This document shows, piece by piece, positions 16,592 through 27,634 of a stretch of DNA of 36,131 nt. The notes beneath the pieces were generated by a model, which had not been told where the DNA came from, did not search any database, and worked only from the letters and a program-made list of their open reading frames with translations. How positions within the stretch are numbered: position 1 is the first letter of the stretch; every line of letters begins with the position of its first letter. Both the position numbers and the translations under genes were made by a program. The DNA comes from Thermoprotei archaeon (lineage in GTDB: Archaea > Thermoproteota > Thermoprotei > QMSL01): contig QMSP01000020.1 in assembly GCA_003650925.1 (NCBI GenBank), forward strand, positions 1-36,131. Reading direction: 5' to 3'.

Positions 16592-17089
16592 ATGAAGGAG
16601 GATGAAATAGTAGAAAAGGTGCTTAGGTCTGGGATAAGAAGGGATATATTAAAGCTCTTGAAGACGAGACCCTATTCCTTAAGTGAACTAACACAAGCAT
16701 TAGGCATGGAGACTCAGAAAAAGCCTCTAATATACTATCATCTTAAAACTATGATGACCTATGACCTTGTGTCTGTGATCGAAAAAGACAATGTGAAGTA
16801 CTATGTATTGACTGAGAAAGGAAGAAAATTAGCTAAGATCGCAGAGAAAAGGCCCTTCATAACTTTCATGAGGTACTCCTCTAGAATAATAATGCCTGTA
16901 GTAGGAGTAGTGTCACTGCTCATGCTACTCATAGGGATGAATACGGGAGATATTTACATATCTCAAGGCTTCGTAATTATAGGCTTTAGGAGCTTATTAG
17001 GCATGGCTTTTGCTATATTCCTATCTACATTCATTATACTAGTAGGCCTCTTCATTTTAGAAAAAACTCTAATAGGCAGGATAAGGTGA
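16592..17089 (+). CDS. Membrane-anchored winged-helix (ArsR-like) transcription regulator
   Basis: The 165-residue protein begins with a winged-helix DNA-binding domain. RRDILKLLKTRPYSLSELTQALG is helix 1 to 2, LIYYHLKTMMTYDLV is the recognition helix, and KYYVLTEKGRKLAKI is the wing and last helix (residues about 15-85). It ends with two transmembrane helices (IIMPVVGVVSLLMLLIGM near 105-122 and LLGMAFAIFLSTFIILVGLFIL near 134-156). Such archaeal proteins are thought to sense a membrane or extracytoplasmic state, but the signal here is unknown. It has its own upstream region with a TATA-like CTTAAATG near 16550. It converges with the FtsZ-family operon, their stops being 27 nt apart. Confidence 0.85.
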   Translation: MKEDEIVEKVLRSGIRRDILKLLKTRPYSLSELTQALGMETQKKPLIYYHLKTMMTYDLVSVIEKDNVKYYVLTEKGRKLAKIAEKRPFITFMRYSSRIIMPVVGVVSLLMLLIGMNTGDIYISQGFVIIGFRSLLGMAFAIFLSTFIILVGLFILEKTLIGRIR

Positions 17090-17100
17090 AAAAAGAAAAC
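17089..17100 (-). terminator. T-rich terminator of the FtsZ-family operon
   Basis: Just after the last gene of the operon the minus strand reads GTTTTCTTTTTTC (17100-17088). T-rich tracts of this kind are enough to stop archaeal RNA polymerase. No stem-loop is needed or seen. Confidence 0.5.
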
Positions 17101-17116
17101 AGGGAAGTTATTAAGG

Positions 17117-18094
17117 CTATAGCAGCTCTAGGCTTCCTACAAGCGATTCCACTGTAGGTGATCTGACTCCTGATGCTAGAAGCATTACTCTTGGCCTCTC
17201 TAGTAGGTCATTGATTCTAAAGCCCCAGTAGACTCTTGTTATTCCATACTTCTCCGTGACCATCCTTGGGGCCTCACTAGCCTCCTCCAGCGTTGTCTTG
17301 GATGGTGCTTCTACATACAGTAAAGCCGCAGAGGCTTCCTTGAGGTCTGCATCAAGCAGTACATTATTGACCGCGTTAGCACAGGCCTCTGAGATTCTCG
17401 TCCCAACTCCATGGCCTACTACGCCCAGCTTCATGTCCTTTACTACGCTTACGAAATCTGAGAAGCTTATACTAACTATTCCCCCCTTAGTTATTATATC
17501 CACAATGCCCTTTATGGTATTGACAAGTATGGTATCCATGAATTTGAATGCATACTGTACTGGTATGGTGCCTATTCTCTTGAGGAGTATATCGTTTAAG
17601 TGAACTATAGTGAGGTCAGCCGCGCTTATTATAGAGCCAAGGCTGAGTTTAGCATTCTCTATCCTATTCATGCCTTCAAAACTGAATGGTAAGGTTACAA
17701 CAGCTATCCTGAGAGCATTGGGTATTCTGTTGCCTATCTCCTCAAGGAGTATAGACATTCCTCCAGAAGCTGTTCCTCCACCAAGTCCACCAGTCACTAT
17801 CACCACATCTGGCGTTCCAAGGCTGGTTATCACCTTGCTCACATCCTCCTTCATAGCTTCCTCGCCTAGAGCTATGTTGCCGCCACATCCATGGCCTTTC
17901 ACAACAGTTTCTCCTATCAATATCTTATTCCTTACCTTCACGCTTCTGAGATGCACCAGTTCTGTGTGTACAGCGATAGCAGCTATATTCATTTCATCGA
18001 CTATGCCGACTTCATATAGCCTATTTAGTGTATTGCATCCACAGCCGCCTATTCCCACTATGGCAATCTTAGGGTTTATACCCACAGCACTCAT
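17117..18094 (-). CDS. FtsZ/tubulin-superfamily paralogue D (last gene of the operon)
   Basis: The 325-residue protein keeps the FtsZ fold order: nucleotide loop GIGGCGCNTLNRL (14-26), AVHTE (41-45, where FtsZ has NTD), the tubulin signature GGGTASG (105-111), PFSFEGMNRIENAKLSLG (136-153) and DLTIVHLND (160-168). The T7 loop VSISFSDF (207-214) and a full C-terminal domain ending LLASGVRSPTVESLVGSLELL follow. Of the T7 residues that act on the neighbour's GTP (E. coli N207, D209, D212), the first two are serine (S208, S210) and only D213 remains. It has no linker and conserved tail for FtsA/SepF-type anchors. ATG 18094 overlaps the previous stop (ATGA) after GAAGGTGA. It probably binds GTP but is unlikely to trigger hydrolysis alone. 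Confidence 0.85.
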   Translation of the reverse strand: MSAVGINPKIAIVGIGGCGCNTLNRLYEVGIVDEMNIAAIAVHTELVHLRSVKVRNKILIGETVVKGHGCGGNIALGEEAMKEDVSKVITSLGTPDVVIVTGGLGGGTASGGMSILLEEIGNRIPNALRIAVVTLPFSFEGMNRIENAKLSLGSIISAADLTIVHLNDILLKRIGTIPVQYAFKFMDTILVNTIKGIVDIITKGGIVSISFSDFVSVVKDMKLGVVGHGVGTRISEACANAVNNVLLDADLKEASAALLYVEAPSKTTLEEASEAPRMVTEKYGITRVYWGFRINDLLERPRVMLLASGVRSPTVESLVGSLELL

Positions 18095-19029
18095 TCTTTC
18101 ACCTTCTTCAGAAGATCTTCAACTTCCCTTATTTTGACACGAGATATCAAGGTAGTTACTCTATACCCAGGAACCCGCCAATTGTATGCAGCTCCTATGT
18201 AGTAGTCCTCTATACCATACTTAACCATGAGGATATCCCTTACCTTATCCATGTCCTCAGCCTTTAAGTAGGCTATAGGTGCCTCAATGAAGACTACTGC
18301 AGACCTCCCCTTTTCTACTCGAGCTGTGCAGTAGTAGTTTCTCAAGGCCTGGTCAAAGGCTGCTTCAACATCTCTTCCTGTGCCGAAGCTAATTACGCCT
18401 AAACCACCATCTCTAGTAACCTTCTCTATGTGAGTAAAGTCCACGGCCTGTATAGCATCTTTCACTTCTGGAATTTCAAGAATGCTCTTCAAGGATTCAA
18501 CAATATATCTGTTGCCTATCTCATAGAGCTGTCTTGGACTTGGAGAGAGAGGCCTTTTTCTAAGAACCTCGTTGGATAGGACGAACACTATGTCAGCCTT
18601 GGGAAGTAGCTCTTTGAGAGCACGTTCAGCGTTCTCTATCCTACTCTTAGCCTCATTTAGCGATGGCAAGACTATGTAGTACCATTTGAGCGCTTCAGGC
18701 ATAGCATCCTTCAGCTCCTCAGCTAAGGCTATCAGACCGCCACTTCCCATGCCTCCTCCTATGCCAGAGGTCACTATGATTACGTCAGAGCCATGTAGGC
18801 TCTTGATTGCTTCAGCGACAACGTTCTTCACCAGCCTATATCCTTCCTCATACTCTCCCCCTGTTCCTCTTCCCGATGGTGTCTTTATCCTGTGCTTCAC
18901 CCTGGCCATGCTTAATGCTCTTTCGTCTACGTCTATGGCTACAGTGTTGGCTGTTCCAACCTTCATCTCAAAGAGAGACACTATGTTAATACCACAGCCT
19001 CCTATGCCTACTACTGTTGTTCTCACCAT
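18091..19029 (-). CDS. FtsZ/tubulin-superfamily paralogue C, the most divergent copy
   Basis: The 312-residue protein starts directly with VVGIGGCGINIVSLF (6-20). It has AIDVDERAL where FtsZ has NTDAQAL, and the tubulin signature is GGGMGSG (91-97; the usual threonine is methionine). SRIENAERALKELLPKADIVFVLSNEVL (129-156) matches the region that contacts guanine. The T7 loop QAVDFTHI (194-201) has A195 for asparagine, keeps D197 and has H200 for the second aspartate. PFxFEG, present in the other copies, is replaced by LPSLNEAK. The C-terminal domain is shorter and ends in a basic/acidic helix (KIREVEDLLKKVKE). ATG 19029 follows GGAGGTG and overlaps the 91-residue gene by 7 nt. It may be a structural or regulatory subunit. 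Confidence 0.8.
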   Translation of the reverse strand: MVRTTVVGIGGCGINIVSLFEMKVGTANTVAIDVDERALSMARVKHRIKTPSGRGTGGEYEEGYRLVKNVVAEAIKSLHGSDVIIVTSGIGGGMGSGGLIALAEELKDAMPEALKWYYIVLPSLNEAKSRIENAERALKELLPKADIVFVLSNEVLRKRPLSPSPRQLYEIGNRYIVESLKSILEIPEVKDAIQAVDFTHIEKVTRDGGLGVISFGTGRDVEAAFDQALRNYYCTARVEKGRSAVVFIEAPIAYLKAEDMDKVRDILMVKYGIEDYYIGAAYNWRVPGYRVTTLISRVKIREVEDLLKKVKE

Positions 19030-19298
19030 GTTCCACCACCTCCTCCTACAGAGCCTCTGGAGAGCATTAGGCGAAGAGCTTGTACTAGTGCATGAAGAGC
19101 TTCATATTTGTCTACGTTCACTTGAGCTTCCTGTGTTCTAAGCCAGTCCATGAACTTCATGACTGGGGGGTCATAAGGCATGCTCTGAAGCTCTAAGTAG
19201 CGAGCTAGCTCTACCTCGCCAGGATTCTCTTCGAGGAACTTTATGGCTAGTTCGATTATATCCTTCTTCTCTTTTTTCCTCTTAAGAAGGGGGCTCAT
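19023..19298 (-). CDS. Small alpha-helical protein of the FtsZ-family operon
   Basis: I recognise no family. The 91 residues begin with a very basic patch (KRKKEKKD, 6-13). Amphipathic helices follow (IIELAIKFLEENP; ELARYLELQSM; PPVMKFMDWLRTQ; VDKYEALHALVQALRLMLSRG), and the protein ends with VGGGGGTW. The glycine tail is encoded by the ribosome-binding sequence of the next gene. ATG 19298 overlaps the preceding FtsZ-family stop by 4 nt (ATGA) after TTAGGAGGTGG, and its own stop overlaps the next start by 7 nt. Such coupling suggests fixed amounts relative to the filament proteins. The basic N-terminus could contact membrane or nucleic acid, and a role as an adaptor or filament regulator is a guess from position. 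Secretion or membrane signals are absent. Confidence 0.75.
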   Translation of the reverse strand: MSPLLKRKKEKKDIIELAIKFLEENPGEVELARYLELQSMPYDPPVMKFMDWLRTQEAQVNVDKYEALHALVQALRLMLSRGSVGGGGGTW

Positions 19299-20323
19299 GG
19301 CATACCACCTCCTAACAATCTTTCAACATATCTTGACTTTGCTCCTGTAATGAAGAGGGACGTCCTGATGTCAACCATTCCAAGAGTTGGCCTGAGGCCC
19401 ATGAAGACCTCTCCTATCTTCAAGTCATCGCTTAAAGTTCGTACCACAGACCTTATCTGACCCATGTCTAGTGCAGTCTCTCTTCCTTCGAATAGTATGA
19501 GAGCGCCCCTTCCTCCAGCCACGTCAGCTTCAGCGAAGTCATCTCTTATAGCCTTGGTGAATGACTCTAGTACGCTTCTTCCAACTCCAACTCCAGCGAA
19601 GCATATCCCAGATCTCTCCATTATCCTCTGCACATTGGAGAAGTCAACGTTTATGAGGCCAGGGCCTACTTCAGGAGAGTTCAGCTTTACTAACGCCTCA
19701 ACTATTCTTACTATCCTTCTATTCATTATTCTGAAGGCTTCAGGCATGCTTACATTACGCAATCTGGTGGCCAGCAAGTCATTGGCATTTACTATGATTG
19801 CATCGGCCACGTTCATCACCTCTCTTAAGCCATACCTTGCATTCTCAAGCCTTTCAAAGCCTTCCTCTCTGAAAGGCAGAGTAATTACAGCTACCTTGAG
19901 TGTCCTAGGCCTTTTTATGGATAGTTCTCTGAACAGTACAGGCAGTCCTCCTGTTCCAGTCCCTCCTCCCATTCCAGCTATGCCTATGACCATATCTACA
20001 TCCTCATCTATAGCTGCTATAGCCTCGTCAATGCTGCTCTCCATAGCCTTAGCACCAACCTCAGGTGAGCCATGAGCACCTCTTGCAAGCGTTAATGGAT
20101 TGCCCAGTAGTACTCTAGCATGACATTGAGTCCTTCTTAAAACCGCTGCGTCTGTGTTCATAGCTATGAGCTTTACTGGCAATCTCTCCTTAGCCAGAGC
20201 ATCTATTATGTTATTTCCACAGCCTCCTACGCCGACCACATTTATTTTGACAGCGGACTTCTTCTCCATCTCTTCTATGAAGCCTTCCTCTCGCCTGCTC
20301 ATTATATCACTAACCCACCCCAT
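19295..20323 (-). CDS. FtsZ/tubulin-superfamily paralogue B, the most FtsZ-like copy
   Basis: Start ATG 20323 is chosen because AGAGGTG lies about 6 nt upstream; a GTG at 20332 would overlap the preceding stop. The 342-residue protein has GVGGCGNNIIDAL (31-43), MNTDAAVL (55-62), GAHGSPEVGAKA like FtsZ GAGGNPEIGRKA, and an unaltered tubulin signature GGGTGTG (119-125). LPFREEGFERLENARYGL and VNANDLL (178-184) follow. The T7 loop LINVDFSNV (223-231) keeps N225 and D227, but the second catalytic aspartate is N230. In E. coli FtsZ, changes at that aspartate (D212) give proteins that bind GTP but scarcely hydrolyse it. The end is SRYVERLLGGGMP, with no recognisable adaptor-binding tail. An N-terminal extension of about 25 residues precedes the fold. 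Confidence 0.88.
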   Translation of the reverse strand: MGWVSDIMSRREEGFIEEMEKKSAVKINVVGVGGCGNNIIDALAKERLPVKLIAMNTDAAVLRRTQCHARVLLGNPLTLARGAHGSPEVGAKAMESSIDEAIAAIDEDVDMVIGIAGMGGGTGTGGLPVLFRELSIKRPRTLKVAVITLPFREEGFERLENARYGLREVMNVADAIIVNANDLLATRLRNVSMPEAFRIMNRRIVRIVEALVKLNSPEVGPGLINVDFSNVQRIMERSGICFAGVGVGRSVLESFTKAIRDDFAEADVAGGRGALILFEGRETALDMGQIRSVVRTLSDDLKIGEVFMGLRPTLGMVDIRTSLFITGAKSRYVERLLGGGMP

Positions 20324-20328
20324 GATTC

Positions 20329-21324
20329 TCACCTCTGGAGAAGCTCAACCTCACCAATCCAGTCCTCTATAGTCTTAGACCTAACCCCACTTGCTATCAA
20401 GAGGACAGAGCTTTCCCTAAGCTCAGGGTCTGTCCTAAGGCCCCAAAGTATCCTCTCAACATAGTACTTCTCGCTTAGCGCTCTGAGAGCGTCCATAGCC
20501 TCCTTTAGTGATGTGCCTACGGGGGCTTGAACTAGTAGTAGAGCACCTTTAGCCGATGAAGGGTCGGCGTCCAGTAGCCTGTTCTCTATGGCGTTCTCAA
20601 GAGCTCGTCTTATCATCCTATGCCTGCCAAAGCCCATCATACATAGCCCTGAGCCTTTTACAGCAGATACAAAGTCTGAGAAGTCAACATGCTTTATGGA
20701 GCCTTTTGGGTCAAAGCATCTTAGAAGGCTCTCTATGGCGTTAGCTACCAAGAGGTCGACAGCTCTAAAGGCCTCTCGTACTGGCAGTGAACCATACTTA
20801 TCCAAGAGCATATCATTCATGTTGACGACTATGAAGTCAGCTACAGGGAGGAGCTCTTTAAGGCCTACTTGAGCATTCTTTATCCTCTCCAATCCTTCAA
20901 ACTTGAACGGTATGTCACCTATGACGCCAACTACAAGGTCAGGTAAGGACTTCTTCAGCTCTGATACTATGTACGGAAGAGCTCCAGATCCTGTTCCTCC
21001 TCCAAGGCCACAAACCGCAATGAGCAGGTCAGGCCTTTTCACAGCCTCCAAGACTTTATCAATGTCCTCTTCAGCAGCTTTTCTCCCCTTGGCTATGTCG
21101 CCTCCAGTCCCTCTCCCTCTACATACAGTCTCGCCTATCTGTATCAGCGCATGAGCTTTGGTAACGGAGAGGGTATTTACGTCAGTATCCACGGCTATTA
21201 GCCTTGCTGGAACCTTCCTCCTGTAGAGGTTAGTAACGGTATTACTTCCTCCTCCGCCTACTCCAAGCACTACTATGTCAAGGCCAACTCGAGGCAGCTC
21301 CTCACTTCTATAGGTCATCTCCAT
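20329..21324 (-). CDS. FtsZ/tubulin-superfamily paralogue A (first gene of the operon)
   Basis: ATG 21324 is preferred: a TATA box at 21351-21359 puts the transcript start near 21330, downstream of the alternative GTG at 21342, leaving an almost leaderless mRNA. The 331-residue product has VVLGVGGGGSNTVTNLY (18-34), AVDTDVNTL, GRGTGGDIAKGRKAAEEDI, tubulin signature GGGTGSG (108-114), PFKFEGLERIKNAQVGLKELL (139-159) and VNMNDMLL (167-174). In the T7 loop KHVDFSDF (211-218) asparagine is H212 while both aspartates, D214 and D217, remain. Among the four copies it has the best-kept acid pair and is the likeliest active GTPase. The C-terminal domain ends LLIASGVRSKTIEDWIGEVELLQR with no adaptor-binding tail. 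The stop is about 5 nt before the next ATG. Confidence 0.88.
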   Translation of the reverse strand: MEMTYRSEELPRVGLDIVVLGVGGGGSNTVTNLYRRKVPARLIAVDTDVNTLSVTKAHALIQIGETVCRGRGTGGDIAKGRKAAEEDIDKVLEAVKRPDLLIAVCGLGGGTGSGALPYIVSELKKSLPDLVVGVIGDIPFKFEGLERIKNAQVGLKELLPVADFIVVNMNDMLLDKYGSLPVREAFRAVDLLVANAIESLLRCFDPKGSIKHVDFSDFVSAVKGSGLCMMGFGRHRMIRRALENAIENRLLDADPSSAKGALLLVQAPVGTSLKEAMDALRALSEKYYVERILWGLRTDPELRESSVLLIASGVRSKTIEDWIGEVELLQR

Positions 21325-21350
21325 AGAGCTCGTCTTAATCACCTCATGCG

Positions 21351-21359
21351 TTATATATA
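21351..21359 (-). promoter_or_regulatory. TATA box of the FtsZ-family operon
   Basis: On the minus strand TATATATAA lies at 21351-21359, an excellent box A. Transcription is expected about 25 nt on, near 21330, just before ATG 21324. The rest of the gap up to the divergent MgtC/DUF4010 gene (21360-21622) is AT-rich. It holds plus-strand TATA-like TTTATAAG at 21553-21560 and ATTTAAAG at 21569-21577, either of which could serve that gene. Confidence 0.55.
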
Positions 21360-22993: not shown

Positions 22994-23947
22994 ATGCTGT
23001 GGATAGATAAGAGGAAGTGCAGAGAGGTAGCTCTAAAAGTGGAAGGCATTCTTCCTAGTTCCGTGGATGAGTTTACAGATCCAAGATACTATCCACCAGA
23101 AGGAGAGGATGAGGAACAAGTTGCTAGGTATTTCTTCTTCATGGTAGCCATAGACCATAGAACTCACCTACCTGGTCATGAATATAAAGCCGTCATAGAT
23201 GGTCAAGTTCATAGTGGAGCCGACCTTCTCTATCGACTTGGAATGAAGAGATACCTAGAGAATCGTGCCTTCTTTTCCCCAGAGTCTATGGCTAATATTA
23301 CCAGAGAGGATGTAGAAGAGTGGCTTAATGTAAATGAGGCTAAGATAAGAGATCCCGACGTAAGAGCCTATCTCCTTAGAGACGCCGCCGTAAAGCTCAT
23401 TAAGCTCTATGAAGGGCAAGTCATGGAGCTGATAAAGGCCTCATCAGGCTATCTCTACTCTCCCAGAGGTGTGAAAGAAGGGCTTATAGAGAGGCTAAAG
23501 GCATTTAGAGCCTATGAAGATCCTGTCGAGAAAAAGCCCTTTCTCCTGTTCAAGTTCCTTGAGAGAAGAGGGATAGTGAAGGTGAAGGATAAGGATAGAG
23601 CACAGATCCCCGTGGATAACCATCTCACTAGGATAGCCATTAGACTAGGACTTGTTAAGGTGGATGAGAAGCTCAAGGAAGTATTCCTCTGGAGGAGGGA
23701 AGCCACATGGGAAGAAGACATAATCATACGCCTCGCCGTGAGAAGAGCCTACAAGAGGCTTTCTGAGGAGAGGAAAATCGATATAATGATCCTTGATGAT
23801 TTCCTATGGAGCTTCGGAAGGAGGGTATGTGGGGCAGAGAAGCCCAGATGCAATGAATGCCCCCTTTCAGACGTGTGTGATGCTTTCCATGAAGAAAGCA
23901 CAAGGATGTTGAAGGAGCATTACTATTATGATACCTGGTACTACTAA
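22994..23947 (+). CDS. Fe-S HhH-GPD glycosylase-like protein with Q-salvage-type N-terminus
   Basis: The 317-residue protein combines two sets of features. Residues about 42-110 (QVARYFFFMVAIDHRTHLPG, GADLLYRLGMKRYLENRAFFSPESMANITREDVEEWL) resemble queuosine-salvage (DUF2419/Qng1) proteins, themselves distant relatives of DNA glycosylases. Residues 205-221 (IPVDNHLTRIAIRLGLV) match the HhH-GPD catalytic strand-helix, with D208 in the place of the catalytic aspartate. The end carries C279-x6-C286-x2-C289-x5-C295, the endonuclease III/MutY-type 4Fe-4S loop. It is therefore probably an N-glycosidase acting on a base in DNA or on a modified nucleoside. I cannot choose between the two substrates. 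ATG 22994 follows TTTAGGAGG. It converges with the RpiB-like gene, 12 nt away. Confidence 0.7.
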   Translation: MLWIDKRKCREVALKVEGILPSSVDEFTDPRYYPPEGEDEEQVARYFFFMVAIDHRTHLPGHEYKAVIDGQVHSGADLLYRLGMKRYLENRAFFSPESMANITREDVEEWLNVNEAKIRDPDVRAYLLRDAAVKLIKLYEGQVMELIKASSGYLYSPRGVKEGLIERLKAFRAYEDPVEKKPFLLFKFLERRGIVKVKDKDRAQIPVDNHLTRIAIRLGLVKVDEKLKEVFLWRREATWEEDIIIRLAVRRAYKRLSEERKIDIMILDDFLWSFGRRVCGAEKPRCNECPLSDVCDAFHEESTRMLKEHYYYDTWYY

Positions 23948-25654: not shown

Positions 25655-27634
25655 CTACTTCCCCTCCTTTAGCTCGTCTGATGATATCTGCTCTACTGAC
25701 ACAGCTTCCTCGAAGGCCTCTATGCCCTCCTCCACTCCGTAAAAGATCCTTTCAACTATGTAATCGACTACTTTCTCAAATTGACCTCCTAAGCTATGCT
25801 CAAGCTCTCTGAGAGTTCTATATACCATCAGGACAGTAATAGCTAGCATTACCAAGGAGATCGTGAGTGATACATGTTGTGTCAATGGCGTTATGTGAGG
25901 CATGATGAGACTCATAGAGTACCAGACTATAGCTATGATGCCTAGGGATGTTAAGCAATTTATCACTGCTTTGAGCGAGGAACTTGTTGTCCAAAGGCGC
26001 TCAGCAATTATTTCAATGAGGACAAGGATCATATTTCTGAGGGCTAATACTGTACGAAGTGAGAAATAGGCTATGAGGAGCGCGTATATCAAGGTGACCA
26101 CTAGTGTGGATTCGACTTCAAAATAAAATATCTCGATGGAAAATTGAGGTATATGAGGAGCAAGTAATAGGAAGGCCATGACCAATAGAACAAGCTTAAC
26201 TAAGTACATGACTGTAGCATGAAGATGTTTCTTTAAGCCTTGTCTCAGTAGAGCTTCTTGACTGGTAGTTATAATGTGTGGCATAACTTCCCTTCTCATC
26301 CTTGCCTCAGACACTATGAAGCTTGGATGAACCTTGAGCATATGACATATGATGAAGAATGTGGATGAGGCTACTAGATAGTAGAGAGCGAGCGAAGGTA
26401 GGCCTATAATCAACGAAAGGACTATGATGAAGAGCCTCATATCTCTCGTCACGTAGGCAGGAGGAGATGGAGCAATGTCATACTCCTCAGGCTTGTTCAG
26501 AATGCTTAGAGCATTAGCATACTCTACAAGGAATATGCTTGCTGAAGCTATAGGGGTTAGTAGGTCCTTTATGAGACCGCTACACGTAAGGCCAAGAGCT
26601 ATTATGATGAGGAGGTCTGTTACTCCATGGGTAACGAGCGTACATACTCTCTCATTAACTGTCTCTTGCTTCATGAGGCTGTGTAGCTCATCACTTGCTT
26701 CTCCCAGTATGGCTGCGAGATATACTAGAGAAGCTGCTACAAGACCTAGTCCTAGACGCATACATGGAAGCGATAATAGGGCTATGAAGAAGCCTACTAT
26801 GGATAGCGTTAATGGGCCTACTGCTATCCCTGTCCTGTAGAGCCATGTCGATAACTTCGTTGAGAGAGGCTTGAAGAGATATTGGGATATAAAGCCTTTA
26901 CTTGACTTGGTTAATTCTCTTTGGATAATGCTCCAGTATATTCTTCTAGCCTTCTTCAGATCCTCGGGAGTATCTATATCGAGCCATAGGAGATTAGTGA
27001 CATCCACATAGTCTACTTCTCCCATGCTCGAGGCGTACTTGAGGGCATCACTTATCGATGCTTTAACTCCTTTCTCTCTAATCACCCTCATGACTATCTC
27101 TTTTGACTTCCTATTGAAGAGGATAAGGCCTGTATCTATGCCGTCAACAGGAGGTAGGCTCTTTCCAACGTCGCTCACTCTTCCCTCTCTGATTCTTATC
27201 TTAAGACCTTCCATGGCCTTATCCCAGCTCGGACTTCTATCAAGACATACTACAAAGGCTTTAGTCGATTTGGTCGATAGAATTCTTTTAAGCATCTCAC
27301 GCTCAAATATGTGGTCAGACATCAATACCAGGAATCTACTTAGGTTCAGTTTTCTTATCGCAAATGCTATAGGATATAAATTGCCAAAGTCCTCCCCTAC
27401 GTAGTCAATGGAAAGAACTTTGGCCTTGTAGCCTACTTTCTCCTCAAAAACTGACTTGAACTCAGGCCTTGTAACTACGTATATGTCCTTGAGACCAGCT
27501 TTCTCAAGCCTTTCGATAATGAAATCTATGATACTTTTACCTGGGGCTATCTCAAGCATGGCTTTAGGCTTATCATGAGTATAAGGATATAATCTCGTTC
27601 CCTTCCCTGCAGCTATTATTATGGCAGGAAACAT
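25655..27634 (-). CDS. Nucleotidyltransferase fused to an inactive-looking CDP-alcohol phosphatidyltransferase domain
   Basis: Residues 1-232 are an NTP-transferase domain: AAGKGTRLYPYTHDKPKAML (8-27), DIDTPEDLKKAR (219-230). Residues 245-445 align in layout with the membrane half of bifunctional inositol-1-phosphate cytidylyltransferase/di-myo-inositol-phosphate-phosphate synthases (KGFISQYLFKPLSTKLSTWL, then helices, then VTRDMRLFII). Such enzymes make the heat-protecting solute di-myo-inositol phosphate. However the catalytic motif DxxDGxxAR-x8-G-xxx-D-xxx-D is nearly gone: EASDELHSL stands at 312-320 and no aspartate occurs from 316 to 339. A further region (about 470-659) adds four hydrophobic helices and an acidic cytoplasmic tail. 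Usual length is about 430 residues, so this is an extended form. It probably makes an NDP-sugar or CDP-inositol; transfer activity is doubtful. Confidence 0.75.
   Translation of the reverse strand: MFPAIIIAAGKGTRLYPYTHDKPKAMLEIAPGKSIIDFIIERLEKAGLKDIYVVTRPEFKSVFEEKVGYKAKVLSIDYVGEDFGNLYPIAFAIRKLNLSRFLVLMSDHIFEREMLKRILSTKSTKAFVVCLDRSPSWDKAMEGLKIRIREGRVSDVGKSLPPVDGIDTGLILFNRKSKEIVMRVIREKGVKASISDALKYASSMGEVDYVDVTNLLWLDIDTPEDLKKARRIYWSIIQRELTKSSKGFISQYLFKPLSTKLSTWLYRTGIAVGPLTLSIVGFFIALLSLPCMRLGLGLVAASLVYLAAILGEASDELHSLMKQETVNERVCTLVTHGVTDLLIIIALGLTCSGLIKDLLTPIASASIFLVEYANALSILNKPEEYDIAPSPPAYVTRDMRLFIIVLSLIIGLPSLALYYLVASSTFFIICHMLKVHPSFIVSEARMRREVMPHIITTSQEALLRQGLKKHLHATVMYLVKLVLLVMAFLLLAPHIPQFSIEIFYFEVESTLVVTLIYALLIAYFSLRTVLALRNMILVLIEIIAERLWTTSSSLKAVINCLTSLGIIAIVWYSMSLIMPHITPLTQHVSLTISLVMLAITVLMVYRTLRELEHSLGGQFEKVVDYIVERIFYGVEEGIEAFEEAVSVEQISSDELKEGK

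Follow-up and report, generated by a model that had tools for sequence, protein, structure and literature searches.

The stretch of DNA analysed here (the window) is a contig of 36,131 nucleotides (nt) from the genome of a heat-loving Thermoprotei archaeon (NCBI assembly GCA_003650925.1, contig QMSP01000020.1, which is contig C20 of an 81-contig, 2.14 Mb draft that is 98.6% complete and is called G000 below), and on its minus strand, between positions 17117 and 21342, lie five intact open reading frames (ORFs) in the order A-B-S-C-D, of which A, B, C and D encode proteins of the FtsZ/tubulin GTPase family and S encodes a small protein. Comparison of these sequences across genomes suggests, with a probability of about 0.55, that the operon specifies a self-contained, co-inherited FtsZ-type cytomotive system in which a small partner accompanies four specialised subunits. 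It would be a new variant within the FtsZ superfamily, which looks ancient and whose large proteins look like specialised filament subunits. An earlier interpretation, made from the letters of the window alone (the sequence-only reading), had described five coupled minus-strand genes encoding four non-identical FtsZ-family proteins and one small helical protein, and the ORFs, the gene junctions and the scores of hidden Markov models (HMMs) all agree with that description; its further proposal of a multi-subunit filament or membrane-remodelling machine is upheld in so far as a filament of several subunits fits the T7 loops, which are conserved and particular to each paralogue, while co-polymerisation and the role of the polymer remain proposals.

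Both the GTPase domain and the fold place the large operon proteins in the FtsZ/tubulin superfamily. The Pfam Tubulin domain (PF00091) is matched at E-values of 4e-30 (A), 7.7e-33 (B), 6e-25 (C) and 4.8e-32 (D), and because these matches score far above the curated cut-off, and orthologues exist in other genomes, chance ORFs are ruled out. The FtsZ_C domain is recognised in A (1.6e-8) and D (4e-9) only, and the FtsZ equivalog model TIGR00065 matches all four proteins at 95-211 bits, which is under its cut-off of 295 bits. The AlphaFold model of the gene C protein, with a predicted local distance difference test (pLDDT) score of 90.6, superposes on FtsZ crystal structures with template-modelling scores of 0.8-0.86. 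Comparison with sequences in the PDB gave E-values of 1e-51 to 1e-64 for FtsZ and of 1e-11 to 1e-22 for CetZ, so that the affinity is not with CetZ; the best match to a solved structure is M. jannaschii FtsZ1 (1FSZ/1W58), found by A at 8e-51 and by the group profiles of A and C at 2e-64. The plasmid or phage origin and the affinity that mark TubZ and PhuZ were not seen either (the PHROG PhuZ match is just 1e-8 for A and C), and two scans of viral contigs gave no relative that would point to a viral origin. Degrading pseudogenes, which the sequence-only reading had said would count against it, are ruled out by the intact frames and by a codon-position pattern in which differences amount to 63-74% at third positions against 20-43% at second positions, indicating purifying selection. 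A recent tandem duplication is ruled out by the pairwise identity among the paralogues, which is 28-41%, together with their orthology across genomes.

Evidence for co-inheritance comes from a phylum-wide search of 398 genomes, which gave two further arrays (repeat sampling of the phylum gave mostly the same genomes). The first is in a metagenome-assembled genome (MAG) of the same class as G000, 'Thermoprotei archaeon B15_G2' (G357), where the order is expanded to A-B-S-X-PRC-Y-D across two contigs (L035 and L037) that share a 61-nt overlap, the inserted PRC-barrel protein being of 79 amino acids and recognised at 1.8e-9; a second array (L036) provides an alternative path, X2-Y2-D. The second is in a more distant MAG, 'Candidatus Bathyarchaeota archaeon ex4484_205' (G120, about 7% contamination), which carries exactly A-B-S-C-D on a 9-kb contig (L038). 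The five-gene order, on whose conservation the sequence-only reading had made its case depend, is thus retained in one relative and expanded in the other, whereas the genes flanking the operon are not conserved between genomes, which makes the cassette itself the unit. To their orthologues in G357 and G120 respectively, A is 55% and 41% identical, B 61% and 43%, and D 63% and 47%, and the median identity of reciprocal best hits to G000 is 51% for G357 and 38% for G120; between genomes A, B and D are about as similar as reciprocal best hits in general, a level that fits either inheritance or transfer at an early date. With a profile of D, true D orthologues score 526-596 bits and the best match from any genome of the phylum lacking the operon scores 219 bits. 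A contig scan using A alone found no relatives, and an alignment search with gene D recovered both named relatives, along with 19 bacterial FtsZ-family matches at 25-34% identity; the Lentisphaeria/Victivallales and other bacterial FtsZ-family proteins concerned (L062-L079) match short peptide patterns of gene D. The sequence-only reading had also mentioned several ftsZ-like genes in korarchaeal genomes; no korarchaeal connection was found.

The two arrays of G357 enter the same gene D through an identical 61-nt contig overlap, and L035 and L036 are near-identical over their final approximately 130 bases, whereas their X copies are 72% and their Y copies 54% identical; either the arrays are in tandem and have undergone gene conversion, or two strains are present. 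On the 3' side of D in G357 (L037:6598-8636), a 95-amino-acid protein and a coiled-coil winged-helix protein possibly extend the operon.

Phylogenies were computed with IQ-TREE from 64 and 47 sequences, which included M. jannaschii FtsZ1 and haloarchaeal, TACK and bacterial FtsZ, and had no CetZ row. The operon proteins form one group apart from FtsZ1, FtsZ2-type and bacterial FtsZ, with supports of 97/94 and, on a long stem, 100/100, so that a place inside the canonical FtsZ1/FtsZ2 clades is contradicted by a split at 100/100. Within the group, which consists of two sub-lineages (A+D and B+C, the latter also containing X and Y), each paralogue is monophyletic across genomes (A 100/99, B 100/98, C 97/95, D 100/95), from which it follows that the duplications precede the split of the operon copies. 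The sequence-only reading's description of the four as divergent and non-identical is in accord with these trees, which place them outside both FtsZ1 and FtsZ2 as separate orthologous groups. Least secure is the C pair, whose branches are long: dropping either sequence leaves the other in the B/C sub-lineage at a different node, and it is uncertain that the two C genes, of G000 and of G120, are truly orthologous. These results bear on the proposal that four independent paralogues merely share an operon, for redundancy or dosage, without forming a heteropolymer. The extra copies X, Y, X2 and Y2 of G357 do resemble a lineage-specific amplification; however, the paralogues are all orthologous groups of old standing, each of which keeps its place in divergent genomes and has its own active-site changes, and recent amplification predicts near-identical copies in place of the 28-41% identity seen, so that we regard this proposal as quite improbable.

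The specialisation of the subunits is suggested by the loops of the active site, which were aligned to M. jannaschii FtsZ1 together with 48 reference rows. In FtsZ, the T7 loop enters the GTP pocket of the neighbouring subunit and has the motif NxDxx[D/E] (PMC12583498). Both acids of the loop are present in 42 of the 48 reference rows, and among the operon proteins A keeps both in all three genomes (HVDFSD, RVDFAD, HVDFSD), while in D, across the three genomes, serine stands in place of the first acid (SISFSD, SISYAD, GISYGD), C lacks the second (AVDFTH, RIDFPT), and B has asparagine for the second in two of the three (NVDFSN). In the protein of gene C, moreover, the T4 loop is degenerate (GGGMGSG, with methionine replacing threonine) and the T3 loop is shortened, yet the fold is predicted to be complete. 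The canonical motif is not found in the operon set, A itself reading HxDxxD, and the T7 loop which the sequence-only reading had ascribed to each protein is present in all four, with both catalytic aspartates in A only. The pattern of paralogue-specific catalytic and non-catalytic T7 interfaces that characterizes heteropolymers is thus seen at the level of sequence.

Several observations weigh against a self-contained, co-inherited system. The distribution is very sparse, amounting to three MAGs: among 81 genomes of the class the set was found in G000 and G357 and is absent from the other 79, of which two have a single weak tubulin-domain match each. Poor conservation in relatives, which the sequence-only reading had conceded would undermine it, is therefore real at close range, where the three genomes of the same order lack the set, but it is offset by the two more distant genomes that keep the order. 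The change from aspartate to asparagine in the T7 loop of B is missing from G120, which reads SIDFSD, and X and Y of G357 are only loosely orthologous to their counterpart C, so that not all of the T7 differences are old. Finally, G001, a 94%-complete relative of G000 within the same order, is without any FtsZ and shares with G000 a syntenic CdvA-like gene.

If the contig had come from another organism by faulty binning, any claim about division in the host would be wrong. Both named carriers are MAGs, G000 is a draft in many contigs, and the operon of the contaminated G120 lies on a short contig; against this, the GC content and tetranucleotides of the flanks and the operon fit G000 better than G357, G120 or G001 (the mean tetranucleotide r to G000 is 0.56 and 0.59 for the flanks and 0.46 for the short operon segment, compared to a within-genome mean of 0.55), the glycerol kinase encoded in the flank shares 77-79% identity with the versions of classmates, and the 41-63% identity of A, B and D lies so near the overall divergence of the genomes that the three copies cannot be a single contaminant. 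Neither composition nor the affinity of the flanking gene nor divergence thus supports contamination, and we consider it very improbable. Elsewhere in the assembly, G000:C19:1-20000 (L099) is a strong tetranucleotide outlier (mean r 0.18 versus 0.55) with no Rfam match, and is possibly a contaminant or a mobile region.

A mechanism can be proposed for the system of specialised subunits. A and D, from one sub-lineage, would co-assemble with B and C, from the other, into a mixed GTP-dependent polymer, whose longitudinal interfaces would differ in GTPase activity, somewhat like those of alpha/beta-tubulin: A would bring a T7 loop that is complete and set off hydrolysis in the adjacent subunit, the interfaces formed by B, C and D would be slow or silent, and C may be a poor binder of GTP with a structural or regulatory part to play. 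None of A, B, C and D has a C-terminal linker with a SepF/FtsA-binding peptide, and only 7-13 residues follow the last strand in the operon proteins, as opposed to 11-65 in the references (median about 38, mostly more than 30). Given this lack of a tail and of SepF, the membrane would be reached through S or through short N-terminal extensions, and in G357 the PRC-barrel protein would be added to the membrane-attachment components; the polymer would then constrict or remodel the membrane. The protein of gene B has an N-terminal extension of 25-28 amino acids, and the hydrophobic moments of candidate N-terminal amphipathic helices are suggestive only. OdinFtsZ1 is tethered by an N-terminal helix (PMC8178401, PMC12583498), and by analogy such tethering is conceivable here. 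S follows directly after B in all three genomes, and this fixed position suggests that it is a physical partner of the filament. It has no family match in Pfam, NCBIfam or PHROG; BLAST relates it to its counterparts in G357 (4e-16) and G120 (6e-4), and its AlphaFold model, of modest confidence (pLDDT 68), consists of four helices and matches no fold in the PDB.

A division role for the operon is plausible, with cytokinesis on the one hand and cell-shape or other membrane work on the other each falling somewhat short of even odds. In its strict form, in which the operon is a division ring that replaces both canonical FtsZ/SepF and ESCRT-III, the cytokinesis proposal draws on the fact that no tubulin-domain genes other than the four of the operon were found in the nearly complete G000, in which searches for Snf7/ESCRT-III and for SepF gave no match (SepF was not found in G357 either), and on the fact that the proteins are nearer to FtsZ than to CetZ, TubZ or tubulin. 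Moreover, Thermoproteales-type archaea have long been known to be without FtsZ and CdvB (PMC8178401, PMC9723716, PMC7617429). The class of G000 is probably the one to which such archaea belong, to judge from its named member B15_G2 and from how rarely FtsZ and ESCRT-III occur in it. However, the Snf7 model is insensitive, scoring S. acidocaldarius below its cut-off; G120 holds canonical FtsZ and SepF in addition to its operon; and 79 of the 81 class genomes, as well as G001, divide without the set. In 40 relatives no tubulin-domain gene was found. Since G001 must divide, the order can divide without the operon, and since the CdvA-like gene is common to this FtsZ-less relative, division cannot be assigned to the operon. 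ESCRT-III is undetected in both G000 and G001, and the neighbourhoods of two Snf7 genes held neither CdvA nor CdvC. The strict ring is accordingly doubtful.

The CdvA-like coiled-coil match in G000 (C2:49515-49826) scores 30.7 bits, just over its cut-off, and 27.7 by hmmscan; the gene (G000:C2:49191-49988, L175:7192-7989) and its G001 copy (L176:6500-7387) lie near a gene for a RecA/RadA-type recombinase. A PRC-like N-terminus is weakly recognised in the G001 copy, and a PRC family search of G000 gave no match. CdvA-like proteins were later found in the Thermoproteales-type archaea, and in Haloferax PRC proteins act with SepF to recruit FtsZ (PMC10936438). The presence of this gene favours a different proposal, in which division is carried out by a CdvA-based machine common to the relatives, and the operon serves cell shape, motility or intracellular membranes in the manner of CetZ or FtsZl. 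The sparse distribution, the coexistence of canonical FtsZ in G120 and the absent SepF-binding tail all agree with it, but the E-values to CetZ are at least 20 orders weaker than those to FtsZ and no vWA or protein-kinase partners of the FtsZl1 type adjoin the operon, which leaves this proposal unlikely as well. Unlikely too is the compound claim that a four-component FtsZ heteropolymer, with one complete and three interface-specialised subunits together with S, would serve a crenarchaeal lineage that has neither canonical FtsZ/SepF nor ESCRT-III as its machine for division or constriction.

The coordinates of the genes and signals are collected in Table 1. B and S overlap by 4 nt, S and C by 7 nt, and C and D by 4 nt, while A and B are separated by about 5 nt if B begins at ATG 20323 and overlap by 4 nt if it begins at GTG; A, B, S, C and D probably form one transcription unit. 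Judged by the spacing of TATATATA, transcription would start at about 21328-21330, shortly before ATG 21324. This element, which the sequence-only reading had called a strong TATA box, is well placed, but the octamer alone is no rarer than chance (2 found, 1.4 expected in shuffled sequence); similarly, the T-rich stretch read as a terminator is visible, but scoring of hairpin terminators downstream of D found no terminator-like hairpin.

Table 1. Genes and putative signals of the operon (window coordinates)
Feature	Position	Strand	Details
Gene A, FtsZ-family	20329..21342	-	337 amino acids (aa) from GTG, or 331 aa from ATG 21324 (probable start); T7 loop HVDFSD
Gene B, FtsZ-family	19295..20332	-	345 aa from GTG, about 342 aa from ATG 20323 (probable start); T7 loop NVDFSN
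Gene S, helical protein, basic N-terminus	19023..19298	-	91 aa; between B and C
Gene C, most divergent FtsZ-family member	18091..19029	-	312 aa; T7 loop AVDFTH
Gene D, FtsZ-family	17117..18094	-	325 aa; T7 loop SISFSD; T4 loop GGGTASG
TATATATA, possible TATA box	21352..21359	-	from spacing
T-rich stretch 3' of gene D, possible archaeal terminator	17083..17110	-	read directly from the sequence

The operon is flanked by genes for an MgtC/DUF4010 protein and a winged helix-turn-helix (wHTH) membrane protein; the latter (16592-17089) is convergent, has C-terminal hydrophobic, membrane-like segments and ends 28 nt from gene D. Farther away in the window, 22994-23947 encodes a 317-amino-acid protein with weak similarity to queuosine-salvage proteins (PF10343) and to the HhH-GPD/EndIII iron-sulfur motif, and 25655-27634 encodes a 659-amino-acid nucleoside triphosphate transferase that resembles the Thermococcales bifunctional inositol-phosphate cytidylyltransferase/DIPP synthase, with a score far under the cut-off.

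Alpha/beta-tubulin, BtubA/B and the Asgard AtubA/B are heteropolymers with catalytic and non-catalytic T7 interfaces. They offer a mechanistic analogy for the putative co-assembly of the operon proteins, which nevertheless belong to a different family, matching tubulins only at 1e-4 to 1e-11. With archaeal FtsZ1 of M. jannaschii the operon proteins share the two-domain fold and the EGxxR element of the T5 loop, but they differ from it in their separate long-stem clade (100/100), in the degenerate T7 loops of B, C and D, in the missing C-terminal linker and tail, and in being four paralogues encoded in a single operon. The dual FtsZ1/FtsZ2 systems of Haloferax and Odinarchaeota (PMC8178401, PMC12583498) likewise have more than one specialised FtsZ per cell; they consist of two FtsZ genes with intact catalysis together with SepF, whereas here four paralogues are linked and SepF is undetected in G000 and G357. 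CetZ, too, is present in Haloferax (4B45, 4B46, 3ZID) as several copies of divergent relatives of FtsZ and tubulin, but A matches it at 1e-11 as compared to 1e-51 for FtsZ, and the CetZ fold match is also lower-ranked. FtsZl1 and FtsZl2 (Makarova and Koonin 2010, PMC2875224) are also non-canonical, occur in operons and were proposed there for membrane remodelling; FtsZl1 operons have vWA, kinase and GTPase partners, none of which lies beside this operon. The operon family may overlap with the Culexarchaeia-type FtsZ-like clade (PMC9723716), which is deep and was reported as a tree homolog without an operon of paralogues; because that clade includes sequences from Bathyarchaeia and 'unclassified Thermoproteia', databases may already contain individual operon proteins. 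No description of the operon itself was found in the papers searched.

For division in Thermoproteales-type archaea, which lack FtsZ and CdvB (PMC8178401, PMC7617429), four old, active-site-differentiated FtsZ paralogues in this class provide a concrete, expressible candidate. It may also be a natural example of the evolution of hetero-interfaces in an FtsZ polymer, parallel to that in tubulin, available as five thermostable proteins from one operon. A heteropolymer division machine of this kind, if true, would be a third archaeal cytokinesis architecture and the FtsZ counterpart of the division of labour between alpha- and beta-tubulin.

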